Of a stretch of DNA of 64,000 nt, positions 598-25,885 are shown one piece after another. Below the pieces are notes generated by a model. The model ran no database searches, had not been told where the DNA came from, and was given only the letters and a program-made list of their open reading frames with translations. The translations under genes and the position numbers were made by a program. The DNA is from a virus: IMG/VR virus record IMGVR_UViG_3300042935_001018, positions 47,528-111,527 of that record; one strand, written 5' to 3'. How positions within the stretch are numbered: position 1 is the first letter of the stretch; each line of letters starts with the position of its first letter.

Positions 598-737
598 TAC
601 TCTTGGGTTTTAAAGTCGTTACCGTGGGACTCTGAATTGGCTCTCTTTTTTCTTTTCATCGAAGAGTAGTGAGCTGAAGCCCACTTGTGCCATTCCATAA
701 ACGCCTCGTAACGGGCTTTGCTTGAAACTTTACTCAT
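597..737 (-). CDS. Small basic hypothetical protein (46 aa)
   Basis: ATG at 737..735 overlaps the groEL stop as TAATG, and its own stop overlaps the next gene in the same way. The product (MSKVSSKARYEAFMEW...) is basic, Trp- and Lys/Arg-rich with a KRKKR cluster, and may bind nucleic acid. No family is recognised. Its support is the double stop/start coupling and the otherwise unexplained 140 bases between groEL and the next gene. Confidence 0.55.
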   Translation of the reverse strand: MSKVSSKARYEAFMEWHKWASAHYSSMKRKKRANSESHGNDFKTQE

Positions 738-2371
738 TACATCATTGAATTAAAATCCATAGGATCGCTGCTCTTCTCTTTTAGGTTGCTTACAACACAT
801 TCGGTTGTTAGCATAGTACCTGCAATCGAAGCTGCATTTTCTAGCGCCAGGCGTGTTACCTTGGCAGGGTCGATAATACCTTCCTCAAACATATCAACAT
901 ACTCTTCGGTACGTAGATTAAATCCTTGCCAGAAATTATCTGAATTAAGGACCTCATTCATAATATCTTCTGAGTATCCTTGTTCGTATCCGGCATTGGA
1001 TAAAATCTTAAAGAAAGGTTTGTTGATAGCCTGTAGAAGGATTGTATAGCCGAGTTCTGCAGAAGTATTTGCAAACGGTACTAGTGTCTTGTTAGCATGC
1101 AGGTATTCAGCTGCATTTAAAAGAGCGGTACCACCACCTGGCAGAATACCTTCTTGAAGGGCTGCCTTAGTAGCATGCAATGCATCCTCTACTCGATCTT
1201 TCTTCTCTTTCATCTCAAGTTCTGATTGACCTCCGACGTAAACAATCGCTACACCGCCAATCAATCGTCCTAATCGATCCTGGAGAGTCTCTTTTTCGAA
1301 AGGAGATTTAGCATTATCGATCAGAGCTTTGATCTCATCTACCCGGGTTTCAATAGCTTCAGAAGCTCCTTTGCCATCCACAATCGTGGTTTCTTCTTTA
1401 CCGATGGTAACTTTGCGGGCTGAACCTAACCAATCAGGATTGAACTTATCCAGTCGCATTCCTTTCTCAGTTGATACAACTTGACCACCGGTCAGCGTAG
1501 CGATATCTTCTAGCATAGCTTTTTTACGATCTCCAAATTCTGGAGCCTTAACTGCTACTACTTGCAAGATTCCTCGCATCTTATTTACGACCAGGGTGGA
1601 GAGAGCCTCGCCATCGATATCATCGGCAATGATTAACAGAGCTTTGTTCTGAGCTGAACATGCTTCCAGGATTGGAAGAAGCTCTTTGGCGGCAGTGATC
1701 TTTTTATCTGCAATTAAAACCAGTGGGTTGCTCAATGCAGCCGTCATCGTGTTATTATCAGTTACAAAGTAAATTGATTTATATCCACGATTAAACTGCA
1801 TACCCTCTACCGTCTCTAGGTAGGTCTCGCCTGTGCGAGATTCTTCGATAGTCACTACGCCGTCACGCCCCACCTTGTCCATAGCTGCAGCGATTAGCTC
1901 TCCCACCTCAGGGTCGTTATTAGCTGAGATAGTTGCTACCTGACGAAGTTGATTTTCGTCGGTAATTTCTCGGGCTTGTTGCTCTAGGTAAGCTACAACC
2001 TCTTTGGTAGCCTTAGCCACACCTCGGCTAATGTCTACTGCGTTGTGCTTATCCAGATGCTTCAAACCTTCTTTGTAAATTTCGTATGCAAGGAGAGTTG
2101 AGGTAGTAGTACCATCACCGGCTCCGTCTGCAGTCTTGATTGAGGCCTGCTTCACAAGCTGGGCACCCATATTCTCGATAGTGTCTTCTAGCTCGATTGC
2201 TTTGGCTACCGTAACACCATCCTTGGTTGAGACCGGATTACCCATCTGCTGTTCGATAATAACATTCCGGCCGTTAGGACCGAGGGTGGAAGCTACTGCG
2301 TTAGCAAGCTTCTCAACTCCAGCAAGGAGCTGTTCGCGGGCTTGATTTGAAAATTCAATCTTCTTACTCAT
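737..2371 (-). CDS. groEL: GroEL-type chaperonin, 60 kDa subunit
   Basis: Full-length (544 aa) group I chaperonin, expected to form the double-ring folding chamber in the cytoplasm with the GroES encoded just upstream. Visible hallmarks are the nucleotide-binding segments LGPNGRNV near the N-terminus and DGAGDGTTTSTLL around residue 85, and the equatorial segment ALHATKAALQEGILPGGGTALL near residue 400. The C-terminus ends MDFNSMM and lacks the GGM-repeat tail of many bacterial GroELs. The ATG at 2371 overlaps the groES stop by 8 bases. Phage chaperonins are known in several large phages, where they are thought to help fold capsid or other phage proteins; which substrate is used here is unknown. 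Confidence 0.97.
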   Translation of the reverse strand: MSKKIEFSNQAREQLLAGVEKLANAVASTLGPNGRNVIIEQQMGNPVSTKDGVTVAKAIELEDTIENMGAQLVKQASIKTADGAGDGTTTSTLLAYEIYKEGLKHLDKHNAVDISRGVAKATKEVVAYLEQQAREITDENQLRQVATISANNDPEVGELIAAAMDKVGRDGVVTIEESRTGETYLETVEGMQFNRGYKSIYFVTDNNTMTAALSNPLVLIADKKITAAKELLPILEACSAQNKALLIIADDIDGEALSTLVVNKMRGILQVVAVKAPEFGDRKKAMLEDIATLTGGQVVSTEKGMRLDKFNPDWLGSARKVTIGKEETTIVDGKGASEAIETRVDEIKALIDNAKSPFEKETLQDRLGRLIGGVAIVYVGGQSELEMKEKKDRVEDALHATKAALQEGILPGGGTALLNAAEYLHANKTLVPFANTSAELGYTILLQAINKPFFKILSNAGYEQGYSEDIMNEVLNSDNFWQGFNLRTEEYVDMFEEGIIDPAKVTRLALENAASIAGTMLTTECVVSNLKEKSSDPMDFNSMM

Positions 2372-5882: not shown

Positions 5883-5888
5883 ATATCT

Positions 5889-5916
5889 AAAAATAAGAAA
5901 GGAGCCCGTAGGCTCC
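5889..5916 (-). terminator. Rho-independent terminator after queF
   Basis: Minus-strand perfect 6-bp stem GGAGCC-TACG-GGCTCC (5916..5901) followed by TTTCTTATTTTT. It starts 4 bases after the queF stop and ends just before the polymerase ATG, separating the modification operon from polA. Confidence 0.85.
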
Positions 5917-5919
5917 AAC

Positions 5920-6834
5920 TTATTGACGTAAAGTTTTTTTCATCCGTTTATTCGAATCCTTAAACCATCCCGGGATCAATTCGGCATGAGTGGCTCGAAT
6001 AGGATTAATATCAATTCCTCCACGTCGCGTATAAAGACATGCAACCATCAGTTTTTCAGGCTGATAAGCTTGCATGAGATGAGTAAATATCATCTCACAG
6101 ATCTCTTCGTGGAAGTGAGAGACCTGGCGGTGAGATACAATGTACTGTGCTAGTGATGCTTCATCAGCTACGTTCTTACCTTCCATACGGATGTAAACAT
6201 CACCCCAGTCCGGCTGATTAGTTACCCGGCAGTTAGAACGTAGAAGGTCTGAATGAATCTCTTTAACAACGTTTTCTTCTTTTACCTCCCAGACCTTCAA
6301 TTGAGAAGCATCTGAGTGGAATGAAGTAAATTCTACTTCATCTAGGTTTACTAGACCGGCTAGGTCTTGGTAGCCATCGAATTGAAACTCAACTCCGTAA
6401 TCGTTACCGAAGAAGGTACAAATAACATCCCCTTGCAGAAGCTCGGTAAGGTCCTTAGCTACTTGAGTTTCGATAAACTTGATACACTCTTTGGCTGTCT
6501 TGCCAAAAGGAGTCATATTGAATGAGTTGAGGTAAAGCTTGATTGACTTTGACTCAACGTGGAATGGTGAATCGGCCGGGCATACAATCTTAAGCATGCC
6601 TGCTACCGGACGTCCCTTCTCTGTGATTGCTGATACTTCGTAGGCATTCCATGAATCAACTCCTACGAAAGGTAGGCTGTCTTCTTTGATGCCGTAAGCC
6701 TCTCGGTTGAGGTAACGAGGTACTGCTACTAGCAGTGAGGGATCGTATTTGTCTGAGTAGCCTGCACCACCTACCTGTCCGAGGTGTTTACTTGCAATCT
6801 CTACAACTGCGCTTTGATTCTTGTTAGCGTCCAT
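5920..6834 (-). CDS. queF: QueF, NADPH-dependent 7-cyano-7-deazaguanine (preQ0) reductase
   Basis: Catalyses the four-electron reduction of preQ0 to preQ1. At 304 residues it is the long, two-half form. The QueF signature ESKSIKLYLNSFN is at 94-106; the catalytic cysteine is Cys202 in RSNCRVTNQPDWGD, with the partner Asp209; the HFHEE segment is at 239-243 and YTRRGGIDINPIR at 268-280. The ATG overlaps the NTPase stop as TAATG and a terminator follows. In a phage with DpdA and all preQ0 genes, the likely product is preQ1 destined for DNA rather than tRNA. Confidence 0.96.
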   Translation of the reverse strand: MDANKNQSAVVEIASKHLGQVGGAGYSDKYDPSLLVAVPRYLNREAYGIKEDSLPFVGVDSWNAYEVSAITEKGRPVAGMLKIVCPADSPFHVESKSIKLYLNSFNMTPFGKTAKECIKFIETQVAKDLTELLQGDVICTFFGNDYGVEFQFDGYQDLAGLVNLDEVEFTSFHSDASQLKVWEVKEENVVKEIHSDLLRSNCRVTNQPDWGDVYIRMEGKNVADEASLAQYIVSHRQVSHFHEEICEMIFTHLMQAYQPEKLMVACLYTRRGGIDINPIRATHAELIPGWFKDSNKRMKKTLRQ

Positions 6835-7352
6835 TATTTAATGTATTTAAGGATTTGATTTACTCTTTGCATAGGTGAACCGGTTACAGTCAGGTAATGC
6901 CTGTCTGTTAGGTCTAATTGATACTTGAACTCTTCGTCGATAATTTTTCTCCAATCTTCATCAACACTTCTTTCTCCGTCATCGACTGCATCGAATTCGA
7001 TAGGAAAGTAGATATAATGAGTATATTCGTCTTGAACTCGCTGCCAGGTAGCTTCGATAAAATCTAAGCCTGATTGAGATAGTCCCGGCATATGACGAGA
7101 GTAAACTATTAGATCTAAGTAACAACGATCCAGAATAAGATTATAAGGTTTAAGCAATGCCTCTAAATGAAAGCTTGAGATAGCTAACTGAGTTTCTGTA
7201 GTACCTAGTTCATTGATAGGAAAGCCGTAACGAGCTACCGAACGAGTACTCTCATTTACAAACTCCCACTTCGGGAACTGATTCTTAAGAAGCTCATACA
7301 CAGTCGTCTTACCGGTACTACTAGCTCCTACTAATGCAACTCTTTTAATCAT
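6834..7352 (-). CDS. P-loop NTPase / kinase of the NadR-like AAA_28 type
   Basis: 172 residues. A Walker A motif GASSTGKTT lies at 9-17, followed by features seen in AAA_28 and nicotinamide-riboside or nucleotide kinases: VNESTRSVAR near 36 and a DRCYLDLIVYSRHM segment around 98-111 resembling the kinase DR(S/T) motif. The substrate cannot be told. Its stop overlaps queF and its start overlaps the formyltransferase stop by four bases, so it is embedded in the base-modification operon. It might act in that pathway, for example phosphorylating a nucleoside or nucleotide, but a general nucleotide kinase role is equally possible. Confidence 0.8.
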   Translation of the reverse strand: MIKRVALVGASSTGKTTVYELLKNQFPKWEFVNESTRSVARYGFPINELGTTETQLAISSFHLEALLKPYNLILDRCYLDLIVYSRHMPGLSQSGLDFIEATWQRVQDEYTHYIYFPIEFDAVDDGERSVDEDWRKIIDEEFKYQLDLTDRHYLTVTGSPMQRVNQILKYIK

Positions 7353-7885
7353 AGACGTTCTTTAAGGAATTCAATCCACATATTGACTGAAGTCTTATGT
7401 AATGTACGGAATAGTCCGTCAAGATCCAACAGTCTAATGCTAATTTCTTTTTCCATTAGAATCTCTCCTTCGTCTACTCCGGGAGTTACTTTATGAATCA
7501 CGCAACCACCAGTATTATAATCTCCTTCAAAAGCTCGCATCTGAGGATCTTTACCCTTCAGTTCAGGGTAGCGGGTAATCAAACCTGGATGACCGTTGTA
7601 AACTTCGTAACTGTCACAAACCTCTTCAGGAAGTACTCTAAGCCATCCGTGTAGAGTTACAATCGGATCTTTTGCCTGACGGAGATAATGTAAGTATTCG
7701 TAAGCTTCTGGCTTATTGGAGGTAAAGTACAGACGATCTTTAGGAAGAGCAGGACTAATAATTCTAGCATCAGTCGGTCGGCGATTACTAATAATCATAT
7801 CCGGCCACCGCCCTAGAGCTTCCGAGATCTGAACGATCTCAGAACCTGTCTGACTAAAGAATGTTACCCACGGGCGCGTTTCCAT
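7349..7885 (-). CDS. dpdN: PurN-fold formyltransferase, candidate DpdN (dPreQ1 formyltransferase)
   Basis: A formyltransferase of the phosphoribosylglycinamide formyltransferase fold. Counted from the upstream ATG at 7912, the catalytic triad of the fold is visible as Asn106 and His108 (VYNGHPGLITRYP) and Asp147 (PGVDEGEIL). The ATG at 7885 (METRPWVTFFSQTG, 178 aa) places the first beta strand right at the start, so I prefer it, but the longer form is possible. It overlaps the 3' end of the dpdA-like gene by 32 bases and sits two genes from queF. Published work on phage 7-deazaguanines proposed a formyltransferase, DpdN, that converts dPreQ1 to its formylamino form; this gene fits in fold and context. 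A purine-synthesis PurN is unlikely with no other pur gene here. Confidence 0.8.
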   Translation of the reverse strand: METRPWVTFFSQTGSEIVQISEALGRWPDMIISNRRPTDARIISPALPKDRLYFTSNKPEAYEYLHYLRQAKDPIVTLHGWLRVLPEEVCDSYEVYNGHPGLITRYPELKGKDPQMRAFEGDYNTGGCVIHKVTPGVDEGEILMEKEISIRLLDLDGLFRTLHKTSVNMWIEFLKERL

Positions 7886-8684
7886 TTGCAAACCATCTAA
7901 AGCGTGAAACATTATGACGAATGACCTCCATTTGCTTCTCCGTAACTTCGGAGTTAATCATGGTAAAGAGCTTCTGAGATTCTTTATTCCACAGTCCTTG
8001 GTCTTTGTAGTAAATCTCCTTCAGTCCGTGAACCACAGGATTGGAAGTATCTAGGGAGTAAATCCAATCGTACTTAGCCTCTCGGTAGAATTGAAACTCT
8101 TGAGGTAGTCCGCAACCTAAAAGGTGGTGAGGTACGTCAGGATTAATAACTCCGTCTTTAAGCATTCGACCTAGCAACTGTACCCGGCCTAGCATCCAGC
8201 TAACGTATTTGTTAGGATGAGGGAATTTCTCTTGGAAATAACTGTAATCGAAAGAGATTGCCACCATATCTACTTCGGCTATACTGACCATGTATTCGTA
8301 GCAATTGACTATCTGAGAGTAAGTCTTTCCCTGTACTACTCCAATCTTCTTACATTCTGCAGGAACTTTATCAGCATAGTGTATATTCCATTCTGCCATA
8401 TTAGACATAGTCTTCTCTACATTCTCTAACGAGTCAGGAACGATGTACCAGGTTGGCTTAAGTTCGTTAATCCAGTAAGCAAAACGATTAGCATCAAAAG
8501 CTTCTTCTAACTCAAAAATAGAATTATCTAGAATAACTTCTCGGCCGGCTGCCAGAGCATCCTTAAACTTCTGAAGGTATTCAGGATCCTCTTCAAAGAG
8601 GTGAACTAGAGCGTAGTCGTAGTCGGTAAGTTCTTGAATCTCTTTAAAAATAGCTTTTGGAGACTCATGGGCAATTTTAATCAT
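7854..8684 (-). CDS. dpdA: DpdA-like DNA guanine transglycosylase
   Basis: 276 residues, related to tRNA-guanine transglycosylases but shorter and lacking the zinc-cysteine cluster. Likely TGT-equivalent elements in order: ILDNSIFE (Asp53, first catalytic aspartate region), VPDSL at 83-87, GVVQGKT at 115-121 (base-binding Gln-Gly), HLLGCGLP at 187-194 and YSLDTSNPV at 209-217 with Asp212 as the likely nucleophile. DpdA enzymes swap guanine in DNA for a 7-deazaguanine base. Its ATG overlaps the preceding small gene by 8 bases and its end overlaps the formyltransferase. Residue roles are assigned by analogy with the TGT fold; the subfamily is not determined. Confidence 0.85.
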   Translation of the reverse strand: MIKIAHESPKAIFKEIQELTDYDYALVHLFEEDPEYLQKFKDALAAGREVILDNSIFELEEAFDANRFAYWINELKPTWYIVPDSLENVEKTMSNMAEWNIHYADKVPAECKKIGVVQGKTYSQIVNCYEYMVSIAEVDMVAISFDYSYFQEKFPHPNKYVSWMLGRVQLLGRMLKDGVINPDVPHHLLGCGLPQEFQFYREAKYDWIYSLDTSNPVVHGLKEIYYKDQGLWNKESQKLFTMINSEVTEKQMEVIRHNVSRFRWFANGNAPVGNIL

Positions 8685-8865: not shown

Positions 8866-9356
8866 TGCTTGGAGTTTTTAATTTCTTCTTCGGTAAAAAA
8901 TTGCTCTAGGTTAGGAGCAAAGTAATTGATTGACTTCATTACCTTATCGTCCGATTCACGGTATACAACCCATCGATCTCCCACCTGGCGAGTGTAACAA
9001 GTACCATGGTCTTTATAATGAGCATCGATAGTTTCCATTGCTTCATCGTAGGTCTCACAGCTCTTAGACATATTCGATGCCTGTACCTCAGCGTAAGCTG
9101 CCTCTAACTTATCTTTGAGGCCAAAGACCATAGTAGCATTGCCCACGGCAACATACAGGAGATCACAAATAGCATCCAACACTTCCACGATGTCTTTATT
9201 TTCGATTGCTTCGGCGAGTTCATCGGTTTCTTCTTTAATAAAGTTAACAACAAAGTCTGTAAGCTTCTTATCATTAGGAATGATAGGGGTGTAGTTATTC
9301 GGCTTACCGAAGGTAGAATTAAATAGTTCTACTTCGTCAACAAATTTTACTTGCAT
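8862..9356 (-). CDS. MazG / PRA-PH-like nucleotide pyrophosphohydrolase
   Basis: 164 residues. The N-terminal two-thirds carry the all-alpha NTP pyrophosphatase pattern: an EETDELAEAI segment near 43-52 supplies the first acidic metal ligands and EVLDAICDLLYVAVG around 60-74 the second. This fold hydrolyses (d)NTPs or phosphoribosyl-ATP to monophosphates. The last 60 residues look like a separate small domain. It overlaps folE by 10 bases upstream. In this operon it could tune nucleotide pools, such as removing unwanted dGTP or modified triphosphates; that is inference. Confidence 0.8.
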   Translation of the reverse strand: MQVKFVDEVELFNSTFGKPNNYTPIIPNDKKLTDFVVNFIKEETDELAEAIENKDIVEVLDAICDLLYVAVGNATMVFGLKDKLEAAYAEVQASNMSKSCETYDEAMETIDAHYKDHGTCYTRQVGDRWVVYRESDDKVMKSINYFAPNLEQFFTEEEIKNSKQ

Positions 9357-10057
9357 GCGTATCCTTTTACAAATTCATAAAACTCTGCACGGGCTGAATC
9401 TTCTTCAAGGAAGCTGCCTGAAAGCTTTGATGTTTTCATTGATGCACCGGCGTGCTTGGTGCCTCGGCATGATACACAGTTATGACCTGCCTCAATCATT
9501 ACAGCTACTCCAAGGTTACCTTCACACACAGTATCAACTGCGTTATGGATAGCAACAGTAAGCTGCTCCTGAATAGCTCCTCGACGGCCGAAATGCTCTA
9601 CAATACGATTCAGTTTAGAAAGCCCGATTACCTTTCCGTCCTTAGAGGGGATGTAGCCGATATGAACTCGACCGGTAATGGTCTGATGGTGATGTGAACA
9701 CATCGAAGTCAAAGGAATATTTCCTTCAAATACAATGCCGTCGTAACCATCTGAAGGGAAGGCTGTGATAGCAGGCATAGGATTGAATCGGCCGTACCAT
9801 AAATCGTTTACATAAGCTTTTGCTACACGACGTGGAGTATCTGAAGAGTTAGGATCGTTCTTCCAATCAACTCCTAATGCATCGAGAAACTCACCGAATG
9901 CTTTAGCTGCTCTTTCAATAATAACGTATTTCTCTTGTTCGGTAAGAGAGATATCGTTCATCTTATGCATGTTAAATTTCTCTGCCAGTTGAGAGGAAAT
10001 ACCGTTGGCAAAGCCGGCTTGAGCTAACTCTACATCATAACGTTTTTTATCTGCCAT
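9347..10057 (-). CDS. folE: GTP cyclohydrolase I
   Basis: Converts GTP to dihydroneopterin triphosphate, the first step of both folate and 7-deazaguanine synthesis. At 236 residues it is of normal length. Zinc ligands are recognisable in SMCSHHHQT (Cys and His) and in HNCVSCRGTKH, and the segment GLSKLNRIVEHFGRR is the conserved substrate-binding helix. It has its own Bacteroidota-type promoter and a hairpin-bearing leader shared with another gene at 19.3 kb. With QueD, QueE and QueC encoded elsewhere in the window, the pathway from GTP to preQ0 is complete. Confidence 0.96.
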   Translation of the reverse strand: MADKKRYDVELAQAGFANGISSQLAEKFNMHKMNDISLTEQEKYVIIERAAKAFGEFLDALGVDWKNDPNSSDTPRRVAKAYVNDLWYGRFNPMPAITAFPSDGYDGIVFEGNIPLTSMCSHHHQTITGRVHIGYIPSKDGKVIGLSKLNRIVEHFGRRGAIQEQLTVAIHNAVDTVCEGNLGVAVMIEAGHNCVSCRGTKHAGASMKTSKLSGSFLEEDSARAEFYEFVKGYACK

Positions 10058-14537: not shown

Positions 14538-15314
14538 TTAAAAGCCTAAATGTTTTTTGCGTACAAATTCTAAATCAAAAGTAGTTGTTGAGATAGGAGT
14601 TCCTTCTATATCAAAAGGTGTAGGTAGTGGGTTTACCCATCTCCAACCTTCACCCCACTTTTTAAACATATATTCAAAATTTATTTCGTTAACCTGATCT
14701 AATTTTGCTGCTAGTGCAGGTTCTCCTTTTTTGGTTTGACTTCCGTGTTCGTAGTAATCTACACCAGGGCCGTGGTAATAAATACTGTCTAGCTGCTTTA
14801 CTACTTTTATAGGCCTATGCACAAATCTCATAAAATAATCTGCATCTTCGCAGTAAGCTGGGGTTAAGTTTTCGTCAAAGAGTCCGTACTGCTGTACTAC
14901 CCAGTCTTTAATTAGGAATACATCCCAGCTCGGTAAATCAAAATCACCTGCTTTACCATGTACCATTCCTACTTCCGGGTCAGAAGCTTTCTCTGCCATC
15001 TCTTTTAAGAAGCCTGGTCCAAAAGCTACATCGTAGTTTACTATCAACCAGCTAGGAGAATTTATATAACTTTTTATAATAAGGTTAAATGCTCCAGGCA
15101 CACCTAGATTAGCAGGTAAGTGGCATACTGTAATTTTCTTAATAAACTTATGAGAGAGTTTAGCTAGATTGTCAAGCTCTTCTGTGATTTCTCCTCGACC
15201 GTTGTTATTAAAGATAACAAAGTTATCCACCGGGTAGTCTACACTAGCAATCAGCCGGTATAGCCAGTAGGGCGTGTTTACAATTGCTGTTCCTATTACT
15301 GGGATTGAATTCAT
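14538..15314 (-). CDS. Glycosyltransferase, GT-A fold (family 2-like)
   Basis: 258 residues. IPVIGTAIVNTPYWLYRLIASV at the start and FVIFNNNGRGE match the nucleotide-sugar binding half of GT2 enzymes; NLGVPGAFNLIIKSY and WLIVNYDVAFGPGFL show the typical xxD metal-binding area, and CEDADYFMRF is an ED-containing acceptor-side motif. It would transfer a sugar in the cytoplasm to a glycan, protein or DNA. It overlaps the methyltransferase gene by 4 bases. Confidence 0.85.
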   Translation of the reverse strand: MNSIPVIGTAIVNTPYWLYRLIASVDYPVDNFVIFNNNGRGEITEELDNLAKLSHKFIKKITVCHLPANLGVPGAFNLIIKSYINSPSWLIVNYDVAFGPGFLKEMAEKASDPEVGMVHGKAGDFDLPSWDVFLIKDWVVQQYGLFDENLTPAYCEDADYFMRFVHRPIKVVKQLDSIYYHGPGVDYYEHGSQTKKGEPALAAKLDQVNEINFEYMFKKWGEGWRWVNPLPTPFDIEGTPISTTTFDLEFVRKKHLGF

Positions 15315-16543
15315 GATAGTACTTTATAAGAAGGTAAACACACAACAAACTTACCTTCATATCCTTCGTCTTTAAGACTTTTTATGATATGATCACTAAA
15401 ATTATGAGAGAGTATAAGAATGTAATCAATTTGTTCAAAATCTACATCTCCTCTCCCTTTAATTTCTAGTCCGGTACCCGGCATAAATTTGCCTTGTTTT
15501 ATATCAGTATCATCGATAATGAAATCAAGTACTTTACAATCTATCCCGGCACTGTTTAGAAAGACACATCCCTTAGCACTTGCAGCAAATCCTACCAGGG
15601 TCTTACCTTTACCTTTTAGGTACTTTAGTTCACTCTCACAGGATACCAAATGCTGTTTAATTTTTGCTCCCCACTGCTGGTAGAACTTGGGTGTAAGTTT
15701 AGATTCTCTCTTTAGGTAAACTTCTACACTACTATCTTTTAGGTGTTGATTACCTCCTAAATGCCCTATGATTAGACGCAAAGTACCTCCATGTATTTTT
15801 TGAGGAACTACTCGTAAAACTTCCAACTCGTGTTTTTGCATCATTGCTACTAGCGGAGTAACTGTGTAGTAGTACATATGCTCATGGTACACCTGGTCAA
15901 ATTGCTTGGTCTTCATATCATGAAGCCAGTACGGAAATTCTAGTACCCATACACCGTCTGATTGTAGAAGTTTTTTTACCCCTCTAACAAAAGAATTAGT
16001 ATCCTGTAAATGTTGAAAAACATTTGTGGATACAACAACTTTGGCTAAAGTTTTAACTCGGGTAGGGGTATCTTCATTAAAAAACTCGCAGAGTGTATTA
16101 ATTCCCTGTTCTTTAGAGTACTGTGTGATGTTTTCAGAACCATCAATATTTAGGTACTGTAGGGATGTTTTAGAAGTTTCTCGAAAAGTTTTAAGAAGTG
16201 TTCCATCATTACCTCCAATGTCTACAATAAGGTCCTGGTCTTTAAGTTGTAAGAGCTTCCGTACATCTTTGAACATTTTTCTACTATGAGAAATGTAGGG
16301 AGTGTTAACTCCAGACTTGTAAAGGTAGTTACTAAACAAAGACTGACTGTCTACAAAAGTAGTTAAAGCAGTAAGTTTTGATTCTGCAAAATAGTTTAGT
16401 TCTAAAGGAATCTTTTTGCAGGTTAAAGATTCTTCTAAAGTATCGGCAAGATTATTAACAAGCGGCATTTCGCCTAGAGAAAAGTACTTAAGTCTTTCTG
16501 AAGTTCCGGTTATCGGGCATGAATCACTCTGGGAAATTCTCAT
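15311..16543 (-). CDS. Sugar C-methyltransferase-like SAM enzyme
   Basis: 410 residues in three parts, as in NovU/TylC3-type sugar C-methyltransferases: an N-terminal segment (CPITGTSERLKYFSLGEMPLVNNL) matching the small zinc-binding domain, though with only one obvious cysteine in place of the usual CxxC; a central SAM domain with LIVDIGGNDGTLLKTF near 97-112 and VVVSTNVFQHL; and a C-terminal domain starting near 310 (GKTLVGFAASAKG). It probably methylates a nucleotide sugar made with the neighbouring reductase. The start overlaps the reductase by 20 bases. Confidence 0.82.
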   Translation of the reverse strand: MRISQSDSCPITGTSERLKYFSLGEMPLVNNLADTLEESLTCKKIPLELNYFAESKLTALTTFVDSQSLFSNYLYKSGVNTPYISHSRKMFKDVRKLLQLKDQDLIVDIGGNDGTLLKTFRETSKTSLQYLNIDGSENITQYSKEQGINTLCEFFNEDTPTRVKTLAKVVVSTNVFQHLQDTNSFVRGVKKLLQSDGVWVLEFPYWLHDMKTKQFDQVYHEHMYYYTVTPLVAMMQKHELEVLRVVPQKIHGGTLRLIIGHLGGNQHLKDSSVEVYLKRESKLTPKFYQQWGAKIKQHLVSCESELKYLKGKGKTLVGFAASAKGCVFLNSAGIDCKVLDFIIDDTDIKQGKFMPGTGLEIKGRGDVDFEQIDYILILSHNFSDHIIKSLKDEGYEGKFVVCLPSYKVLS

Positions 16544-17198
16544 TATATTTTGCTGTGTTTAGGCTAAAATCTTTACTATGTTCTAATTGAATTTTGTCAA
16601 CCTTGCTGTACTGTGATGCGTAAATATATGAACTTTTTCTGTAACCTCCTACATTTACAATTCCGTTAAGTTTACTCTGTATAATTTTTAAGATTTGAGG
16701 AGCAAGCACACCTACGTATTCTTTACTTGTAAATAAATTTATATATGCAGCAGGATAAGGAAATTTTCTACTTCCAAAACTAGTACGAATTATACAATGA
16801 TCTTTCACCAATCTAGAAGAACATTCTCCCCCTAATTTAGTCCACGCATATTCGTTATTTGGGTATAGAGCATCATCCTCTACATGGTTACCAGTTCCGG
16901 GATAGACGTAGTCTGTGCTAATATATACCAATCTCTTACCATATTGCTGACAGTACTTAGCTATATTAGCAGCACCTATAATATTAACGTCTATAGCAGG
17001 AATAGGATTCTCAGAAACCTCTATGGAATTTGTTATTGCAGCTGCGTTGACTACAGTATCCGGGTTTACTTTATTAAGGTAGTAGAAGACTTCTTTAAAG
17101 TTAGTAATATCAATTTCCCGGCCCGTACAGACTAAGGAAGAATCTAGCTTTTGTAACTCTTTTCCCAGCAACCCTGTTCCTCCTAGTATTGCAATCAC
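16524..17198 (-). CDS. NAD(P)-dependent sugar epimerase/reductase (RmlD-like)
   Basis: 224 residues, GTG start at 17198 that overlaps the previous stop as GTGA. The N-terminal Rossmann motif is AILGGTGLLGKEL, followed by NAAAITNS, the STDYVYPG segment and the catalytic YAWTK (YxxxK). The length is shorter than full RmlD (around 300), with a reduced substrate domain. Likely role is reduction or epimerisation of a nucleotide sugar used by the adjacent glycosyltransferase. Confidence 0.85.
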   Translation of the reverse strand: MIAILGGTGLLGKELQKLDSSLVCTGREIDITNFKEVFYYLNKVNPDTVVNAAAITNSIEVSENPIPAIDVNIIGAANIAKYCQQYGKRLVYISTDYVYPGTGNHVEDDALYPNNEYAWTKLGGECSSRLVKDHCIIRTSFGSRKFPYPAAYINLFTSKEYVGVLAPQILKIIQSKLNGIVNVGGYRKSSYIYASQYSKVDKIQLEHSKDFSLNTAKYNENFPE

Positions 17199-17562: not shown

Positions 17563-17741
17563 TATTTTAACTGTTTTACTTCGTAAATATTTCCTGAGGT
17601 AGTATTGGCTTGAAAGATCTCTGCTAGTTTCAAAGCAGCATCTGCAGATTCAAATTCCATAGCAATACCCTCGCTATCATTCACGATGATAGTACGAGGG
17701 GTTCCTTGGATGCTAGTATGCTTAAGAATGACGAAAGACAT
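17562..17741 (-). CDS. Small hypothetical protein (59 aa)
   Basis: ATG 17741..17739 overlaps the queE stop as TAATG and the stop overlaps the next ATG. The product is MSFVILKHTSIQGTPRT... with a central MEFESADAALKLAEIF helix; the strand-helix-strand layout resembles small modules elsewhere in this phage (19.3 kb and 60.6 kb). Function unknown. Confidence 0.6.
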   Translation of the reverse strand: MSFVILKHTSIQGTPRTIIVNDSEGIAMEFESADAALKLAEIFQANTTSGNIYEVKQLK

Positions 17742-18523
17742 TAAACTTCTCTTTTAGTATCAAAAGCAATGATGTGTTCACGGCCGGTGAAGTTGTACAT
17801 ATTGTCTGTACACCATTGAATTACCGCTGGGTAAACTCGGATAAGTTCCTGACGATTATCCCCCGGAGGCATGATCCAAATCTTATGCTTAGGTACCTGT
17901 AGTTCATCTAGGAAAGACTTAATCTCTGCCCATGTCTGAGGGTCCTCCACTGGGTTTACTACTACCTTCATATGGTAGTCCGAATGGTAAGTCATTGACT
18001 TAGCAATCGACTCTTTATTGAGACGGTAACGGTTGTGAGTCTTGATAAGTTTCTCGTCTACAATATCCCCAAGAGGTGTAGTAGTCCCAAGTACAGGCAC
18101 GCTGTTGCTAAATTTAGGGCTGAAAGATATAAGCCCAATAGGATGATCTGTTTCGAGGAAAGCAGACCCTTCTGTTTCGATTGTGATGATAATTTGCCTT
18201 TCATTTGCAAAGTGAGTTAGTTCATTTACAAGCTTAGGGTGCATGGTCGGTGAACCGCCCGTCAGCATCATCTCCTTAATTTCAGGATTCTGATCGTAAA
18301 TGTTGATAATATCCTGGAAAGTGTATTTACCTTTCTCCGGATGGATTGAAGTGTACCAGCTATCACACCATCCGCCTTCTCCGAAGTAGCAGCGGTGGGT
18401 ACAGCCTGTAGTACGGACTGCAACAGTAGGACGGCCGGCACGGCTGCCTTCTGACTGGATGCAAGTGTAAAGCTCTACAATCGGTAGAACTTTACTATAA
18501 TCTTCTATTCTTCCTAATGGCAT
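17741..18523 (-). CDS. queE: QueE, 7-carboxy-7-deazaguanine synthase (radical SAM)
   Basis: 260 residues. Converts 6-carboxytetrahydropterin to 7-carboxy-7-deazaguanine. The iron-sulfur cluster cysteines are Cys41, Cys45 and Cys53 in TTGCTHRCYFGEGGWCDSW, a CX3CX7C arrangement with an insertion compared with the classic CX3CX2C. N-terminal VELYTCIQSEGSRAGRPTV is the family start and EMMLTGGSPTMHP the SAM-binding GGEP-like segment. It lies 2 bases after queD in the same operon. Confidence 0.94.
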   Translation of the reverse strand: MPLGRIEDYSKVLPIVELYTCIQSEGSRAGRPTVAVRTTGCTHRCYFGEGGWCDSWYTSIHPEKGKYTFQDIINIYDQNPEIKEMMLTGGSPTMHPKLVNELTHFANERQIIITIETEGSAFLETDHPIGLISFSPKFSNSVPVLGTTTPLGDIVDEKLIKTHNRYRLNKESIAKSMTYHSDYHMKVVVNPVEDPQTWAEIKSFLDELQVPKHKIWIMPPGDNRQELIRVYPAVIQWCTDNMYNFTGREHIIAFDTKREV

Positions 18524-18525
18524 AA

Positions 18526-18990
18526 TTAACCTTTATAAAATGCTGTGTTCTTTTCGTGCTCACGAAATTCAACTTGAACTACTTTAACACGATTATCTGT
18601 TTCTTCTTGAATAAATGTATTCAGTTTATTGTAGAAATACTCTGCAAAACGCTCTGCTCCAGTAGCTGGAATAACTCGTAATTGAATCATACCTTCTGTG
18701 TACATATTCTGGAAGTAAGAAAGATACGGATCATCTTCTGCAATAATTGTAGTATGGTCGAGCATATGATCCATCCATGCTTTAGGATTCATACCGTCAA
18801 TAGTTCCAGTAGCACGTTTCATACCTCCGAAATCCCATACCCAGTTACGTTCGTCAAGTTCACCTTCGAACCATACTTTTAAACTTACTCCATAGCCGTG
18901 AAGGAATCTGCAGTGTGTTCCTTCGGCTTTCCATTGACGGAATACTGTTGAGTAACCATCAAATACTTTTGTTGATCTAAATGTGCTCAT
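18526..18990 (-). CDS. queD: QueD-like 6-carboxytetrahydropterin synthase
   Basis: 154 residues of the 6-pyruvoyl-tetrahydropterin synthase fold, the step before QueE. Compared with E. coli QueD, Cys27 (THCRFLHGYG) and the catalytic His in MLDHTTI are kept, as is the VEFREHE acidic segment. Of the three zinc histidines only the first of HGH is kept (His31); the second is Tyr33 and the N-terminal one is replaced by Phe17 (STVFRQW). I believe this belongs to a known divergent subfamily with the same HGY and DERNWVWDFGG pattern, so function in the pathway is likely but the metal site differs. Confidence 0.88.
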   Translation of the reverse strand: MSTFRSTKVFDGYSTVFRQWKAEGTHCRFLHGYGVSLKVWFEGELDERNWVWDFGGMKRATGTIDGMNPKAWMDHMLDHTTIIAEDDPYLSYFQNMYTEGMIQLRVIPATGAERFAEYFYNKLNTFIQEETDNRVKVVQVEFREHEKNTAFYKG

Positions 18991-20227: not shown

Positions 20228-23200
20228 TTATATTTTCTTAAAGAGCTTATAATCTCCTATAATTCTACCACCTGAAAGGTAATTAGTTAACCTTATTTGA
20301 ATATTACCGGCAGAGATAACACCAGTTAGTATATGAGAGGCATTTATAGATCCCAAATCTGGAGCTCCAGAATTAGTATAGAAAATACCACTACCGTTAT
20401 CCCAATGACAAATAAACCTTTGCGATCTAGTAAACGCATAAGATGAATCTGAGGTTGTGTAGTCTATTACTACTGAGTGGTATGTGGTTTGAGGGACAGT
20501 GAGAACTGTATAGGTTGTAGGAGGAGAGTTAACCAGTGACGAGCGGGCGAAATATCCGTACTCTATCTCGTTATCAATACTGTATCCGTCATTTAATACC
20601 AGATAAGTCTTATCACTAACTCCACCGCTCCCACTAGGATTATATGCGTTAGTATCTACGCTTATTTTGGGAATGTACTGTACTTCATCTGTAGCACTAT
20701 TCCAAGATACTATATTAGAATTATCAGAAGTACTAGATAATTCAGCTCCTAAAGTACCGTTTACATCTACCTTAAAAGCTGGAGTAAATGTATCAATACC
20801 AATATTACCTGTAGAACCTGTAGCAAAAATTCTTACTTGACCAGCTCCATCTGATATAAAAATATTTGAATTTTGTGAAACATATCCTGTAGCAGCTCCA
20901 CCAAACCCACCAATTACAACATTATTATTACCTGTTGTAAAAGAAACTCCGGCGCTCCTACCTACAAAAGTATTCGTAATACCTGTAGTCACAAGTTCCC
21001 CCGCTTCAGTACCTAAAAAAGTATTATGAGTTCCAGTAGATACAGTTCTGCCTGCATCCGCACCTAAGAAAACATTATCGGCTCCACTAGATACACTACT
21101 ACCGGCTAAATTACCTATAGCTATATTATTAGATACGTTGCCTAAAAGAGTACTGAGAGTGCTAGTTCCTATAGCAATATTATTACCACCATCACTTGCA
21201 ATTCCTCCAGCCATTGCATTATCTCCAATGGCTATATTTTTACCAGTACCTGCTGGGACAGTATTTCCTGCAATTAAAGCACTGTTACCAATAGCAATAT
21301 CTTTATTAGATCCCCCAGTTCCTAATGCATTATATCCTATAGCTACAGCTAGAGTATTTGTACTATCCCCAGTATTTCGCAAAGCACCATATCCTACTAC
21401 AGTATTTTTAATACTTTCTACACTTTCACCAGCGGCTGGGAGCTCTAAAGTAAAAGCGCCTAAAGTAGTATTTTCTCTACCGTAGTTTGTTCTTTGAGAA
21501 AAATATCCTACAGCTGTATTATAATTGCCTGAATTGTCTCCTAAAGTAAAGAAACCTAGGGCAGTACTGCCCGTTACAATGGGAGAACCTCCCCAAAGGT
21601 AAATTTGTCTATTAGGATCATCCCCAATAGATAATCTATTTAAGGTTGGATTATAAATAAAAGAGCTGGTAGCATATAATGTTTCACCTGTATTTCCCGA
21701 GGCATCAATTAATAGACTTCTATACTCAACATCCCCTGTAGCATTAGCTATATCTACGCTTATAGCATTTGGGTTTGAAGGACCTTGAATTCCTTGAGTA
21801 CCTTGAATACCTGTTATACCTTGAATACCTTGAGTTGCAGTTCCAGTGGTACCTTGTGTACCCTGACCTCCGGTAATACCCTGGATTCCTTGAGTACCGT
21901 CGGTTCCTTGAGTGCCTGTTATTCCCTGTATGCCCTGTGTAGCAGTTCCGGTAGTGCCCTGTGTTCCTTGAATGCCTTGAGTAGCAGTTCCGATAGTACC
22001 TTGAATGCCTTGTATACCTTGTGTGGCAGTTCCGGTAGTGCCTTGTGTTCCCTGAATACCTTGAGTAGCGGAACCAGTAGTACCTTGTATTCCTTGAGTT
22101 GCAGTTCCTGTTGTGCCCTGGGTACCTTGTGTACCTTGAGTTGCAGTTCCAGTGGTACCTTGTGTTCCTTGAATGCCTTGAGTAGCGGAACCAGTAGTAC
22201 CTTGTATACCCTGGCTTCCAATAATGCCCTGGATGCCTTGAGTAGCAGTTCCAGTGGTACCTTGTGTTCCTTGAATACCTTGTGTAGCAGTTCCAGTGGT
22301 ACCTTGTGTTCCCTGTATGCCCTGTGTAGCAGTTCCAGTAGTACCTTGAATACCTTGTGTAGCAGTTCCAGTGGTACCTTGTGTTCCTTGAATACCTTGT
22401 GTAGCAGTTCCAGTAGTACCTTGAATACCTTGTGTAGCAGTTCCAGTGGTACCTTGTGTTCCTTGAATACCTTGTGTAGCAGTTCCTGTAGTACCTTGAA
22501 TGCCTTGGTTACCATCAATACCTTGAATACCCTGGGTTGCTGAACCTGTCGTTCCCTGAGTACCTTGGATGCCTTGTGTAGCAGTTCCGGTAGTACCTTG
22601 TGTTCCTTGAGTTCCAGCTCCGGTAATACCTTGAATACCTTGGGTACCATCGGTACCTTGTGCTCCGGTTATTCCTTGGATGCCTTGGGTTCCGGCTCCG
22701 GTAATACCCTGGATACCTTGAGTACCGTTGTTACCCTGAGTACCTGTTGTACCCTGAATACCTTGAGTACCTGCTCCGGTAATACCTTGTATGCCTTGAG
22801 TACCGTTAGTACCTTGAGTACCTTGAATACCTTGTAAGCCTGTACCAGTAATACCCTGTATACCTTGAGTTCCATCAGTACCTTGAGTACCTGTCGTGCC
22901 TTGAATACCTTGAGCTCCAGTAATACCTTGAATACCTTGAGTACCGTTGGTGCCCTGGGTGCCGGTAGTTCCCTGAACACCTTGAGGACCTGTGTCACCT
23001 TTATCTCCGGTAGTTATAAATGATATTGTTATATCTTCCAGATTGGTGAATGGAGAGGTAGCTGAAGAAGCCTGGTTTGTAATGTCTATAGTCCACCAAC
23101 CTGTATTGTCTGTCAGGTTTGAAATCTGAAATAATAGATATTGAGTAGCGTCGGTACGATTAGCTATTCTAGCATAACCTTTAACTGTAGAGGTTACGCT

Positions 23201-24661
23201 GTCAATGGTTTGCATGAATGAGGAAATATCATTTCCAAAATCATCCAAATCATCAATATACATCTGCGTAGATGTATTTTCGTTAGAATTACTTAGTCTA
23301 ATTTTTCCTTGCCCTGGATCTCCTGAAGTAGTAGTGGAGTCGAAAGTGTAGTCAAAGGTAGCTCCACCAAAAGAACCGTCGGTACCTTGTACACCTTGAA
23401 CGCCCTGTACGCCGTAAGTACCTTGTATACCTTGAGTACCCTGTGTGCCTGTAATACCTTGAATACCTTGAGTACCCTGTAGTCCGTCTGTACCCTGTAC
23501 TCCGGTAACACCTTGAATGCCTTGAGTACCTGTTATACCCTGGGCTCCTTGAGTTCCTTGGGTGCCTTGAGTTCCTTGAGTTCCCTGGATGCCTGTAATA
23601 CCTTGTACCCCCTGGGTGCCTGTTATACCTTGGATACCTTGTAAGCCGTCAGTGCCCTGAGTACCTGTTGTACCTTGTACCCCCTGGGTGCCGGTTATTC
23701 CTTGAATTCCTTGGATACCTTGAGTTCCCTGGGTACCTTGAGTACCCTGGGTACCTGTTATACCTTGAGTACCCTGGGTACCTGTTATACCTTGAATGCC
23801 CTGTAAGCCATCGGTGCCCTGAGTACCTTGAGTACCCTGGGTTCCCTGGGTGCCGGTTATTCCTTGAATACCTTGAGTACCTGTTGTACCCTGTACGCCC
23901 TGAGCTCCTACTATAGAAGTTCTTTTCTTTAAAGTTCCGTCTCCGGCAAGTACAACAAAGTCTGTAAGTGCGTTATCTGTTGCTACTGTAGAGACGTTCA
24001 GGGTACCTGTAACTCCTAAATCAGTGGAAGTTTTTAAACGTGAATTAGTATGATCCCAAGTAACAGATTGATTTGCGCCGGCGATTTGAATACCGGCTCC
24101 GTCTGCTTGAGCTGAGGTAGTAGATCCTGAGGCGACTGTGATGAGCTTATCCTCTACATTAAGTTCAGTAACCTGAAGCTCTGTTCTAGTTCCCTGTACT
24201 GTAAGGTCTCCTGTAAGTATTAGGTTTGCTGTCTGCAGAGTGTTTGAATCCGGATTATATACAATAGAGGAATCTGCTCTAAGATCTTGGTGACCTGAAG
24301 TAGCTTCTGCAAAAACTAAGTAGTAACCCTGGCTGCTACTAGTATTTGTAATATTGACTTTAGAAGCAGATGCTACATTAGTAACAGTAACATCGAATGT
24401 ACTTCCATCTACTTTTTCAAAAGTAATTACACCTCCGGCAGCGGATGCCGATGCCATAAATGAGCCTGAATCTACATTTCCTCCGAAAGAGCTTAAGTCT
24501 ACGGAATGACTAACGCTACCGGTGGTGTAAAGTATGAGCGTGTTATTCGCAAAAGAACTAGAAATATAGAAAGATTCTAGATTGCTATCCATTTCAGTAA
24601 AGGTAAGCCTACTTCCTTTACCGGTATTTGTAGCAGTATTTTGCCTTAATATGATAGCCAT
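20228..24661 (-). CDS. Collagen-like giant tail-fibre protein with YadA-like head repeats
   Basis: 1,477 residues. The N-terminus (MAIILRQNTATNTGKG) matches virion attachment domains in similar phage fibres. Two long collagen-like regions of Gly-X-Y repeats rich in GTQ, GIQ and GIT follow, separated by a beta domain near 430-550; in the second the triplets are interrupted every few repeats by a five-residue GTATQ unit. Around 1,060-1,300 there are repeats of the NIAIGxxA / NTFLGxxAG kind like the beta-roll head of YadA-type trimeric adhesins, then a C-terminal beta domain. It is probably a trimeric long fibre that binds the host surface. Confidence 0.9.
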   Translation of the reverse strand: MAIILRQNTATNTGKGSRLTFTEMDSNLESFYISSSFANNTLILYTTGSVSHSVDLSSFGGNVDSGSFMASASAAGGVITFEKVDGSTFDVTVTNVASASKVNITNTSSSQGYYLVFAEATSGHQDLRADSSIVYNPDSNTLQTANLILTGDLTVQGTRTELQVTELNVEDKLITVASGSTTSAQADGAGIQIAGANQSVTWDHTNSRLKTSTDLGVTGTLNVSTVATDNALTDFVVLAGDGTLKKRTSIVGAQGVQGTTGTQGIQGITGTQGTQGTQGTQGTDGLQGIQGITGTQGTQGITGTQGTQGTQGTQGIQGIQGITGTQGVQGTTGTQGTDGLQGIQGITGTQGVQGITGIQGTQGTQGTQGTQGAQGITGTQGIQGVTGVQGTDGLQGTQGIQGITGTQGTQGIQGTYGVQGVQGVQGTDGSFGGATFDYTFDSTTTSGDPGQGKIRLSNSNENTSTQMYIDDLDDFGNDISSFMQTIDSVTSTVKGYARIANRTDATQYLLFQISNLTDNTGWWTIDITNQASSATSPFTNLEDITISFITTGDKGDTGPQGVQGTTGTQGTNGTQGIQGITGAQGIQGTTGTQGTDGTQGIQGITGTGLQGIQGTQGTNGTQGIQGITGAGTQGIQGTTGTQGNNGTQGIQGITGAGTQGIQGITGAQGTDGTQGIQGITGAGTQGTQGTTGTATQGIQGTQGTTGSATQGIQGIDGNQGIQGTTGTATQGIQGTQGTTGTATQGIQGTTGTATQGIQGTQGTTGTATQGIQGTTGTATQGIQGTQGTTGTATQGIQGTQGTTGTATQGIQGIIGSQGIQGTTGSATQGIQGTQGTTGTATQGTQGTQGTTGTATQGIQGTTGSATQGIQGTQGTTGTATQGIQGIQGTIGTATQGIQGTQGTTGTATQGIQGITGTQGTDGTQGIQGITGGQGTQGTTGTATQGIQGITGIQGTQGIQGPSNPNAISVDIANATGDVEYRSLLIDASGNTGETLYATSSFIYNPTLNRLSIGDDPNRQIYLWGGSPIVTGSTALGFFTLGDNSGNYNTAVGYFSQRTNYGRENTTLGAFTLELPAAGESVESIKNTVVGYGALRNTGDSTNTLAVAIGYNALGTGGSNKDIAIGNSALIAGNTVPAGTGKNIAIGDNAMAGGIASDGGNNIAIGTSTLSTLLGNVSNNIAIGNLAGSSVSSGADNVFLGADAGRTVSTGTHNTFLGTEAGELVTTGITNTFVGRSAGVSFTTGNNNVVIGGFGGAATGYVSQNSNIFISDGAGQVRIFATGSTGNIGIDTFTPAFKVDVNGTLGAELSSTSDNSNIVSWNSATDEVQYIPKISVDTNAYNPSGSGGVSDKTYLVLNDGYSIDNEIEYGYFARSSLVNSPPTTYTVLTVPQTTYHSVVIDYTTSDSSYAFTRSQRFICHWDNGSGIFYTNSGAPDLGSINASHILTGVISAGNIQIRLTNYLSGGRIIGDYKLFKKI
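21780..22990 (-). repeat. Collagen-like coding repeat, second block
   Basis: About 1.2 kb of tandem in-frame repeats encoding Gly-X-Y triplets with regular GTATQ interruptions. DNA units such as caaggtactactgg-like stretches recur with few changes, making the block prone to recombination and to length variation between relatives. Confidence 0.85.
23372..23910 (-). repeat. Collagen-like coding repeat, first block
   Basis: About 0.54 kb of in-frame GTQ/GIQ/GIT triplets near the N-terminal end of the fibre gene, here almost uninterrupted, unlike the second block. Confidence 0.85.
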
Positions 24662-25009: not shown

Positions 25010-25885
25010 TTACTTTGTATGCGATTCAAGTACTTTAGATACTTCGGTCACAACGTGCTCCCAGGTCACAGGGCCAGTCTCGTCAGCATAAGGTGCAGGA
25101 TCAGGACGCCCTAGCTTGATAAATGCTTCAACTCGTTCTACTGAAGAAGCTGATTTGTAGTCTGAGTACCATTCGTATGCATTGGTTTCTTTGCGACTGT
25201 ACCACTTAATGGGTTTATAAGAGGTATTAGTGCGCTTATAGACTTCATCAAATTCAAGTCCTAGTTCCTCACATAACTTCTCTCCATCTTCTAAGATAGT
25301 AAACTTATTACCTTCCAGGTAAGGAGTCCAATAAGATACCCGATCGTTATCCCAGTTACCCATACGAAACGCATGATCGTCGGCGTCGCGGAACTCCTGT
25401 CGGCAGTCTGGGTAGATGTCATGGTCTCCGGCATGGATACCGAGAGCGATGGAGCATTCTTCTTTTGTTTCATTTGCGATAGATAAAGCGATTGCCTGGG
25501 TGATTGAACTGAAGATTTTATTTCGGTTAGGTACTACGGTAGCTTTCATGTTCTCGGCAGCATAGTGACCTTCCGGTACTTCATCACCTCCAGTTACTAG
25601 AGCCGAGTTTAGTAGTTGACTCAAGCCGTCAAGTTTAATTAACTGGTAGTTAACTTTAGGAAAGTGATGCATAATAACTTCAGCTACATCGCTTTTATAC
25701 TTAGTCTCATCAGCTCTAAGATTCAAATAGTTAACCAGGTCTTGAGCTCGTTCAAGCTCTACTCGGTGTTTTTGACCGTAGTCAAACGATACTGCTGTTA
25801 CAGTATCAAATTCACTCAATGCTCTAAGCAAGAGTGTTGAGGAATCCATTCCTCCAGATAACGAAACTACAACGTGTTTTGCCAT
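25010..25885 (-). CDS. queC: QueC-like 7-cyano-7-deazaguanine synthase
   Basis: 291 residues; converts carboxy-deazaguanine to preQ0 with ATP and ammonia. The ATP-pyrophosphatase loop SGGMDSSTLLL is at 9-19, followed by FDYGQKHRVELE, VVPNRNKIFSSI and IYPDCRQEF, all typical of QueC. The C-terminal zinc-knuckle cysteines of bacterial QueC are missing: TxTCY is TNTSY, and the CxxC region is SASSVERVEAF. The rest of the terminal segment, including LGRPDPAPY, is kept. Function is likely retained with a metal-free C-terminus. The gene stands apart from the other deazaguanine genes and has its own terminator. Confidence 0.92.
   Translation of the reverse strand: MAKHVVVSLSGGMDSSTLLLRALSEFDTVTAVSFDYGQKHRVELERAQDLVNYLNLRADETKYKSDVAEVIMHHFPKVNYQLIKLDGLSQLLNSALVTGGDEVPEGHYAAENMKATVVPNRNKIFSSITQAIALSIANETKEECSIALGIHAGDHDIYPDCRQEFRDADDHAFRMGNWDNDRVSYWTPYLEGNKFTILEDGEKLCEELGLEFDEVYKRTNTSYKPIKWYSRKETNAYEWYSDYKSASSVERVEAFIKLGRPDPAPYADETGPVTWEHVVTEVSKVLESHTK

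Follow-up and report, generated by a model that had tools for sequence, protein, structure and literature searches.

The window analysed here, a stretch of 64,000 nucleotides of viral DNA (IMG/VR record IMGVR_UViG_3300042935_001018, positions 47,528 to 111,527), carries on one strand a homologue of the 7-cyano-7-deazaguanine (preQ0) synthase QueC together with other genes of deazaguanine metabolism. Their positions in the window are as follows.

25010..25885, minus strand: QueC homologue without the zinc cysteines, 291 amino acids (PF06508, 127.6 bits)
25211..25231, minus strand: TNTSYKP, residues 219-225 of QueC, with Ser222 at the first zinc cysteine and Tyr223 kept, from alignments
25121..25165, minus strand: SDYKSASSVERVEAF, residues 241-255 of QueC, with Asp242, Ser245 and Ser248 at CxxCxxC, from alignments
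18526..18990, minus strand: QueD (PF01242, 55.2 bits; QueD-like phrog_2389)
17741..18523, minus strand: QueE, radical SAM (PF04055 at the cut-off; QueE-like phrog_2076; 67% identity to the annotated immuto QueE)
9347..10057, minus strand: FolE, GTP cyclohydrolase I (PF01227, 149.4 bits)
7854..8684, minus strand: DpdA-like DNA guanine transglycosylase (71% identity to the annotated DpdA of Flavobacterium phage immuto_2-6A)
7349..7912, minus strand: formyltransferase, possibly a preQ1-DNA formyltransferase (PF00551, 49.1 bits; 58% identity to the immuto homologue)
6834..7352, minus strand: P-loop AAA_28 protein between the formyltransferase and QueF (PF13521, 57.4 bits)
5920..6834, minus strand: QueF of the two-domain type (PF14819, 113.4 bits, and PF14489, 73.3 bits)

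The reading frame of the QueC homologue starts with ATG and is intact; its PF06508 score exceeds the curated cut-off of 22, and it is the sole match to this model in the 111,527-base virus record, which is itself possibly incomplete. In alignments with cysteine-type QueCs, 16 of them from named phages and one a close relative that reads TCYKPNSQGQSCGRCGSCNER, the zinc-cysteine columns of the window protein hold S222, D242, S245 and S248; the C(x)8CxxCxxC zinc motif is absent, and no CxxC is present. The alignment with named-phage QueCs, which the original prediction had proposed as a check, thus bears out its claim that the zinc cysteines are lost. The coordinated replacement by serine that it described applies to positions 222, 245 and 248, and it missed the aspartate at position 242. 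It was also right that the ATP loop and its surroundings are kept, as SGGxDS (S10-S15), YxQxHxxE, VPxRN, YPDC and the tyrosine of TxT(C/S)Y are all present. Against TIGR00364, the NCBIfam QueC equivalog, the window protein scores 130.9 bits, below the cut-off of 150.3, and the cysteine-type relative (L299) also lies just under it, with 148.1. Because it lacks the zinc motif and falls short of the NCBIfam cut-off, we did not file the window protein as a canonical QueC; it is a PF06508 member that most likely acts like QueC.

The AlphaFold model (mean pLDDT 85.1; 78, 86 and 87 for the 10-residue blocks over 221-250) has QueC 3bl5 as its best structural match (Z 18.3, rmsd 3.0 over 196 residues) and matches QueC 2pg3 with Z 17.3 (rmsd 3.0, 200 residues). 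Between and after the two halves of the motif, this metal-free model predicts two strands, at 226-231 and at 236-242, and then a helix starting at residue 246. The model is nearly as near to QatC and Cap9 (Z 16.8 each), with which the 17.3 of 2pg3 is tied, and QueC-fold proteins have been repurposed for protein deazaguanylation, according to the available text of Libby et al. (2026; PMC13329287). The enzyme might accordingly have a changed partner or product, as the original prediction suggested, either stopping at the amide (ADG) or transferring a deazaguanine to protein like Cap9 or QatC. We find this improbable, since the protein retains the canonical motifs for substrate and ATP, of which QatC has lost those for the substrate according to the same available text; since PADLOC, run at E up to 1, matches the protein to the QueC model PDLC00911 only; and since the same phage encodes QueF and bacteria with QueF, TGT and QueA, described below, have no other strong PF06508 protein.

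A defence-type role was a candidate of its own and was rejected, as PADLOC matched the window protein to no model of QatC or Cap9. Among 28 window proteins scanned with Pfam, a subset of the ORFs, there was no CD-NTase or QatA/B/D.

Deazaguanine genes of the phage and its likely host

QueD and QueE lie 6-7 kb from QueC in the window, and QueF lies 18 kb away. The DpdA-like protein has no Pfam match, and its PHROGs matches are all of unknown function. QueF scores 260 bits against TIGR03138, below the cut-off of 293, and contains LRSNCRVTNQPDWG, which we take to be the site of the catalytic Cys and Asp of this enzyme. The same genes recur around related QueCs: in the flanks of 160 viral loci, which are of limited length, we found DpdA in 137, QueD in 117, FolE in 89, QueE in 77, QueF in 24 and the formyltransferase in 17. 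QueF was not within the available flank in 136 of the 160 loci, nor in 27 of the 28 that are 18 kb or longer. In a distant phage locus, L339, the gene order is DpdA, formyltransferase, AAA_28, QueF, QueC, QueD, GroEL, QueE, and in L110, on a contig of a gammaproteobacterial MAG, QueF directly precedes QueC. Homologues of the AAA_28 protein (6834-7352) hold the same position in immuto_2-6A and L339, and this protein may have a part in base modification.

The presence of FolE, QueD, QueE, QueF, the DpdA-like protein and the formyltransferase in one phage makes its QueC most likely the supplier of preQ0, and the best hint of the QueC product is the putative preQ0-consuming QueF. Sequence alone does not distinguish whether a phage QueF reduces or aminates preQ0, and the available text of Hutinet et al. 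(2019; PMC6884629) mentions a possible amidotransferase; were the phage QueF such an enzyme, the DNA base would differ, yet preQ0 would still be needed.

Several other features of the window were recorded. A GroEL-type chaperonin (737-2371, minus strand; PF00118, 244 bits) has a 51% identical homologue in the L339 module, at 5290-6912. The protein of 1477 residues encoded downstream of QueC at 20228-24661 (minus strand), with one small ORF in between, has long collagen-like GTQGIQG repeats and probably belongs to the tail or a fibre. Sugar genes (14538-17198, minus strand: glycosyltransferase, C-methyltransferase and RmlD-like epimerase) adjoin QueE; Immutovirus is credited with nucleotide-modification and surface-glycosylation genes in the available text of a review (PMC11500664). 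A DNA comparison of window positions 1-25000 gave matches limited to short thymidylate synthase and chaperonin stretches.

The closest named phages infect Flavobacterium, and by analogy with the immuto phages the host of the window phage is likely to belong to the Flavobacteriaceae. In a sample of 60 genomes of this family, that of the uncultured Flavobacteriaceae genome G002, searched without selecting on the zinc site, 58 had no PF06508 match above 32 bits; as a control, the model does detect QueC in Bacteroides genomes. One of the two remaining matches lies on the L106 contig, which is presumably phage because DpdA adjoins its QueC, and the other, in G055, is a QueC-like protein of 205 residues with the cysteines kept. 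As most sampled Flavobacteriaceae are without QueC, the phages probably cannot borrow one. The original prediction had named cysteine-free QueCs in the hosts as the observation that would count against it, and this was borne out in part: such QueCs occur in Pseudomonadota, as described below, and not in the likely Flavobacteriaceae hosts.

The supply of QueC by the host was also considered as a candidate in its own right, and we judged it unlikely on the same count of 58 of 60 genomes.

Conservation of the replaced residues

Ser/Asp/Ser/Ser was found in 75 of 75 distinct proteins of our first set and in 160 of 160 viral loci (140 distinct proteins) from two scans of viral contigs. Scan 1, with the window protein as query, matched at least 599 stretches and contributed the best 80 of them; scan 2, with a bacterial member as query, contributed the best 80 of 311. 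The 80 loci of each scan were ranked by similarity to the Ser-type query. In scan 3, with a cysteine-type relative as query, 80 loci were kept, one of them already known, and the other 79 all have Ser, Asp, Ser and Ser. The peptides used in the viral scans cover no ligand position, with KETNAYEW (scan 1) and EAFEIIGK (scan 3) lying nearby. The counts of viral loci given here and below include five with Ala at position 241 and one protein reading TSYDN. The QueC of immuto_2-6A also has Ser/Asp/Ser/Ser. Chance, or an error of sequencing or assembly, is ruled out by the invariance across all 160 viral loci.

Across 162 distinct Ser-type proteins, SGG, D14, S15, Y36, Q38, H40, E43, R121, N122, Y158, D160 and Y223 are invariant, while deviations occur at P119 (1 protein), P159 (4 proteins) and C161 (2 proteins). 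The four replaced residues are invariant as well, which is partly a result of how the set was chosen; no viral-scan locus was excluded from the alignment, whose 163 rows count the window protein twice. S247 is Ala in 33 of these rows, so this neighbour varies more than the former ligand positions do. The Ser/Asp motif ranks with the best-conserved regions of the clade, and the segment between its halves is highly variable in length and sequence.

In five of the nine gene pairs formed by the window gene and its relatives dN/dS is 0.09-0.27, the other four being saturated, and over the 22 motif codons of the nine pairs pN is 0-0.045 and pS 0.06-0.63. The replaced site itself is under purifying selection. 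The loss of four ligands at once would suit a broken site, in a gene decaying because a host QueC or salvage meets the need. The chance of this is negligible in our estimation, given the intact reading frame, the low dN/dS of the five computable pairs, a motif that is invariant in the 140 distinct viral proteins of the two scans, and the absence of QueC from most sampled Flavobacteriaceae. The suggestion in the original prediction of adaptation rather than decay is therefore supported by the conservation of the motif, by these dN/dS values and by a motif pN lower than pS.

The cysteines are missing from a second phage lineage. Of 24 QueCs of named phages, 18 of which were aligned first, 19 have CY...CxxCxxC and five are without it. 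QueCs with T[AS]YDG are found in the Rhizobium phages RHEph04 and RHph_Y55, the Dinoroseobacter phage R5C and the Pseudomonas phages Baskent_P4_1 and PBPA162, and they form a separate clade (100/100) that adjoins the CAjan-type QueC. In a viral scan of this lineage (L303-L338) the cysteines are absent from 34 of 36 loci and kept in L331 and L337; L097, L098 and L201-L203 are further loci of the lineage, and a viral-contig scan with PBPA162 as query confirmed none. The former ligand sites of the lineage read A/S; T/V/N/K/S/E/A; D/N; and S/N/T.

The invariance of all four former ligand positions as Ser/Asp/Ser/Ser in the viral scans could also indicate a shared site in which the metal is swapped and not lost, either bound through Ser/Asp oxygens or exchanged for another metal such as Mg. 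This seems quite improbable to us, as the second cysteine-free lineage has varied residues at these positions, the AlphaFold model predicts an ordered hairpin at the site in the absence of metal, and a serine hydroxyl makes a poor ligand for structural zinc.

For the second lineage there is some indication of the product. PBPA162 is an Iggyvirus, and the genome announcement of the Iggyvirus Knedl (PMC11008142) describes, in its available text, dPreQ0 genes and similarity to phage Iggy; the title of Olsen 2023, as cited there, places dPreQ0 in the Iggyvirus lineage. Because a Pseudomonas host may own a QueC, this dPreQ0 is supportive only as regards the function of a cysteine-free QueC.

Bacterial carriers and descent of the Ser-type branch

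A scan of bacterial and archaeal genomes with a Ser-type search gave 21 loci; one of its peptides holds the Ser motif, so the scan cannot gauge the frequency of the type. The PF06508 searches of genomes G003-G012, of the order and of the Flavobacteriaceae were made without selecting on the zinc site. Five of the 21 loci (L103, L105, L106, L108 and L109) are phage-like, with DpdA, and further loci belong to genome records of Cysteiniphilum, Facilibium, Fangia, two Thiotrichales bacteria and Legionella gresilensis. Four bacterial loci are on contigs longer than 280 kb, amid ordinary bacterial genes.

The ten genomes G003-G012 have no PF06508 match above 29 bits other than the zinc-cysteine-free QueC, and QueD, TGT, QueF and QueA are each present in all ten (the TGT match of G011 with one stop); in eight of them queC and queD are neighbours on one contig. 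The Ser-type protein is the only strong QueC of L. gresilensis. In the cellular loci L111-L119, queD and queE adjoin queC, which they do not in L120 and L122. The Ser-type queC of G019 adjoins folE and an ordinary queD (PTPS, 104 bits), with a possible queE fragment before them. A wider search for QueA found it in 13 of 14 Ser-type genomes, G018 being without it. QueF was not found in the MAGs G001 and G002, whose QueC is on phage-like contigs.

Of the 33 genomes in the order of G004 (Cysteiniphilum sp. JM-1), 13 have a Ser-type QueC, which is their only strong QueC, two have a cysteine-type QueC, and 18 have nothing above 31 bits (G010 was counted from locus L119, leaving out L130 of the same genome). 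At the level of the class that contains G004, a hit of E 1e-40 or better to the Ser-type profile was seen in five of 274 sampled genomes, two with a Ser-type and three with a cysteine-type protein, which makes the type rare among bacteria. That some bacteria seemingly rely on the Ser-type gene to make queuosine is the strongest indication of a functional enzyme.

In a tree of 77 rows, the Ser-type proteins form one clade (100/100) within the cysteine-type QueCs. Their closest cysteine-type relative is L299, from a genome of the same class as G004; its contig neighbours accA, tilS, pyrG and kdsA, named by eye from the starts of the ORFs, indicate a chromosomal location, and its TCYKPNSQGQSCGRCGSCNER aligns in exact register with TSYKPNTDGISDYKSASSVQR of Legionella. 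The nested position of the clade and the exact register with L299 indicate that the loss of the cysteines is derived. Support for a clade of the bacterial Ser-type rows is 98/88, or 89/90 once L339 is added (L109 was labelled cellular in the 77-row tree and, having DpdA, was treated as phage in later trees). L339 is then the first Ser-type branch, and the bacterial clade falls within the viral sequences. In an AU test on an earlier tree, a grouping of all viral Ser-type rows was not rejected (p 0.056). Capture by bacteria from phages is the likely direction suggested by these trees, and it is graded only as likely because of the AU result, because L339 may be part recombinant and because L299 is chromosomal.

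L339 (3983-4786) encodes a QueC with a cysteine-type-like middle and a Ser-type C-terminal motif, possibly a natural module swap.

The cysteine-free C-terminal module could have moved between QueC lineages by recombination, instead of arising by substitution in one ancestor. Residues 61-160 of L339 are nearer to the cysteine-type L299 (0.70; the best Ser-type sequence reaches 0.58 and 0.65), and its residues 208-235 have 0.96 identity to the best Ser-type sequence. Residues 1-60 and 161-190 are, however, also nearer to the best Ser-type sequence, the Ser-type rows including L339 form one clade (96/93), and strong constraint on the motif could produce the same pattern. We therefore consider recombination a doubtful origin, though one compatible with a functional zinc-free preQ0 synthase.

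A broader account, in which our confidence is evenly balanced, is that zinc is dispensable in QueC chemistry and that the zinc-free enzyme had a single origin, in a viral lineage, from which it spread among phages of Bacteroidota with preQ1-type DNA modification and entered Gammaproteobacteria by capture (Fastidiosibacteraceae, related Thiotrichales and Legionella gresilensis), to serve there as the sole preQ0 synthase for tRNA queuosine.

Proposed reaction and comparison with known systems

We consider it very likely that the window protein is a working ATP-dependent preQ0 synthase (QueC) in which a metal-independent Ser/Asp/Ser/Ser element replaces the C-terminal zinc site. Gene content, conservation of the catalytic residues, purifying selection, the single-clade origin and the sole copy in bacteria with queuosine genes are observed; from them we infer the catalysis, the absence of metal, a role of the Ser/Asp residues in holding the C-terminal element, and the final DNA base. 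FolE, QueD and QueE would make 7-carboxy-7-deazaguanine, and QueC, after activating it with ATP, would turn it by way of the amide into preQ0, the nitrile. Reduction of preQ0 to preQ1 would fall to QueF and insertion of the base into the DNA of the phage to the DpdA-like transglycosylase, with a possible formylation by the formyltransferase. Formyl-preQ1 in phage DNA was reportedly described in a 2023 Nucleic Acids Research paper, in which the formyltransferase is said to be named DpdN.

That the cysteine-free branch is large and conserved, and is the sole copy in some bacteria, suggests that the metal site is probably dispensable for QueC chemistry. The literature searched, which covered few subscription papers, held no report of a zinc-free QueC branch. 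The cysteine-free QueC is a probably functional variant of a known enzyme, in phages and, as the sole strong copy, in some bacteria. With two natural lineages without the cysteines, the role of the metal in QueC becomes directly testable, and since the bacterial carriers have no second strong QueC, a clean genetic test is possible. The three such enzymes that we scored all fall below the NCBIfam QueC cut-off and might be misread as broken or defence proteins.

In the available text of Libby et al. (2026; PMC13329287), canonical QueC is defined by SGGxDS, YxQxHxxE, VPxRN, YPDC, the tyrosine of the zinc region and C(x)8CxxCxxC, the last treated as a hallmark; ATP and zinc are both needed, mutagenesis finds three Tyr and one Arg of the motifs essential, and a zinc-free canonical branch does not figure in that text. 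The window protein resembles canonical QueC (PF06508 cluster 1) in its fold, in SGGxDS, YxQxHxxE, VPxRN, YPDC and the catalytic Tyr, and, in bacteria, in the linkage of its relatives to queD and queE. It differs in being longer (291 amino acids), with a predicted and variable hairpin that joins the two motif halves, in having Ser/Asp/Ser/Ser and no zinc motif, and in its score below the TIGR00364 cut-off. Cap9 (CBASS type IV) and QatC (Qat defence) share its fold, with the Z of 16.8 given above, but keep a cysteine motif of their own, according to the text available for PMC13329287, that the window protein lacks.

Among phages, the QueCs of the Mycobacterium phage Rosebush group and of Arthrobacter phage Mufasa8, with about 33% identity to the window QueC, are among its nearest named-phage relatives after immuto and keep all four cysteines; Rosebush DNA contains dPreQ0, according to the available text of Hutinet et al. 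(2019; PMC6884629). In Rhizobium phage RHEph04 and the Iggyvirus PBPA162, the zinc cysteines of QueC are also absent and the Tyr is kept, in a separate clade whose replacement residues differ from those of the window QueC. Closest among the named phages is Flavobacterium phage vB_FspM_immuto_2-6A, which shares the set of FolE, QueD, QueE, QueF, DpdA and formyltransferase with the window, and whose QueC, annotated as 7-cyano-7-deazaguanine synthase, has 77% identity and the same Ser/Asp motif, with sequence divergence as the only difference.
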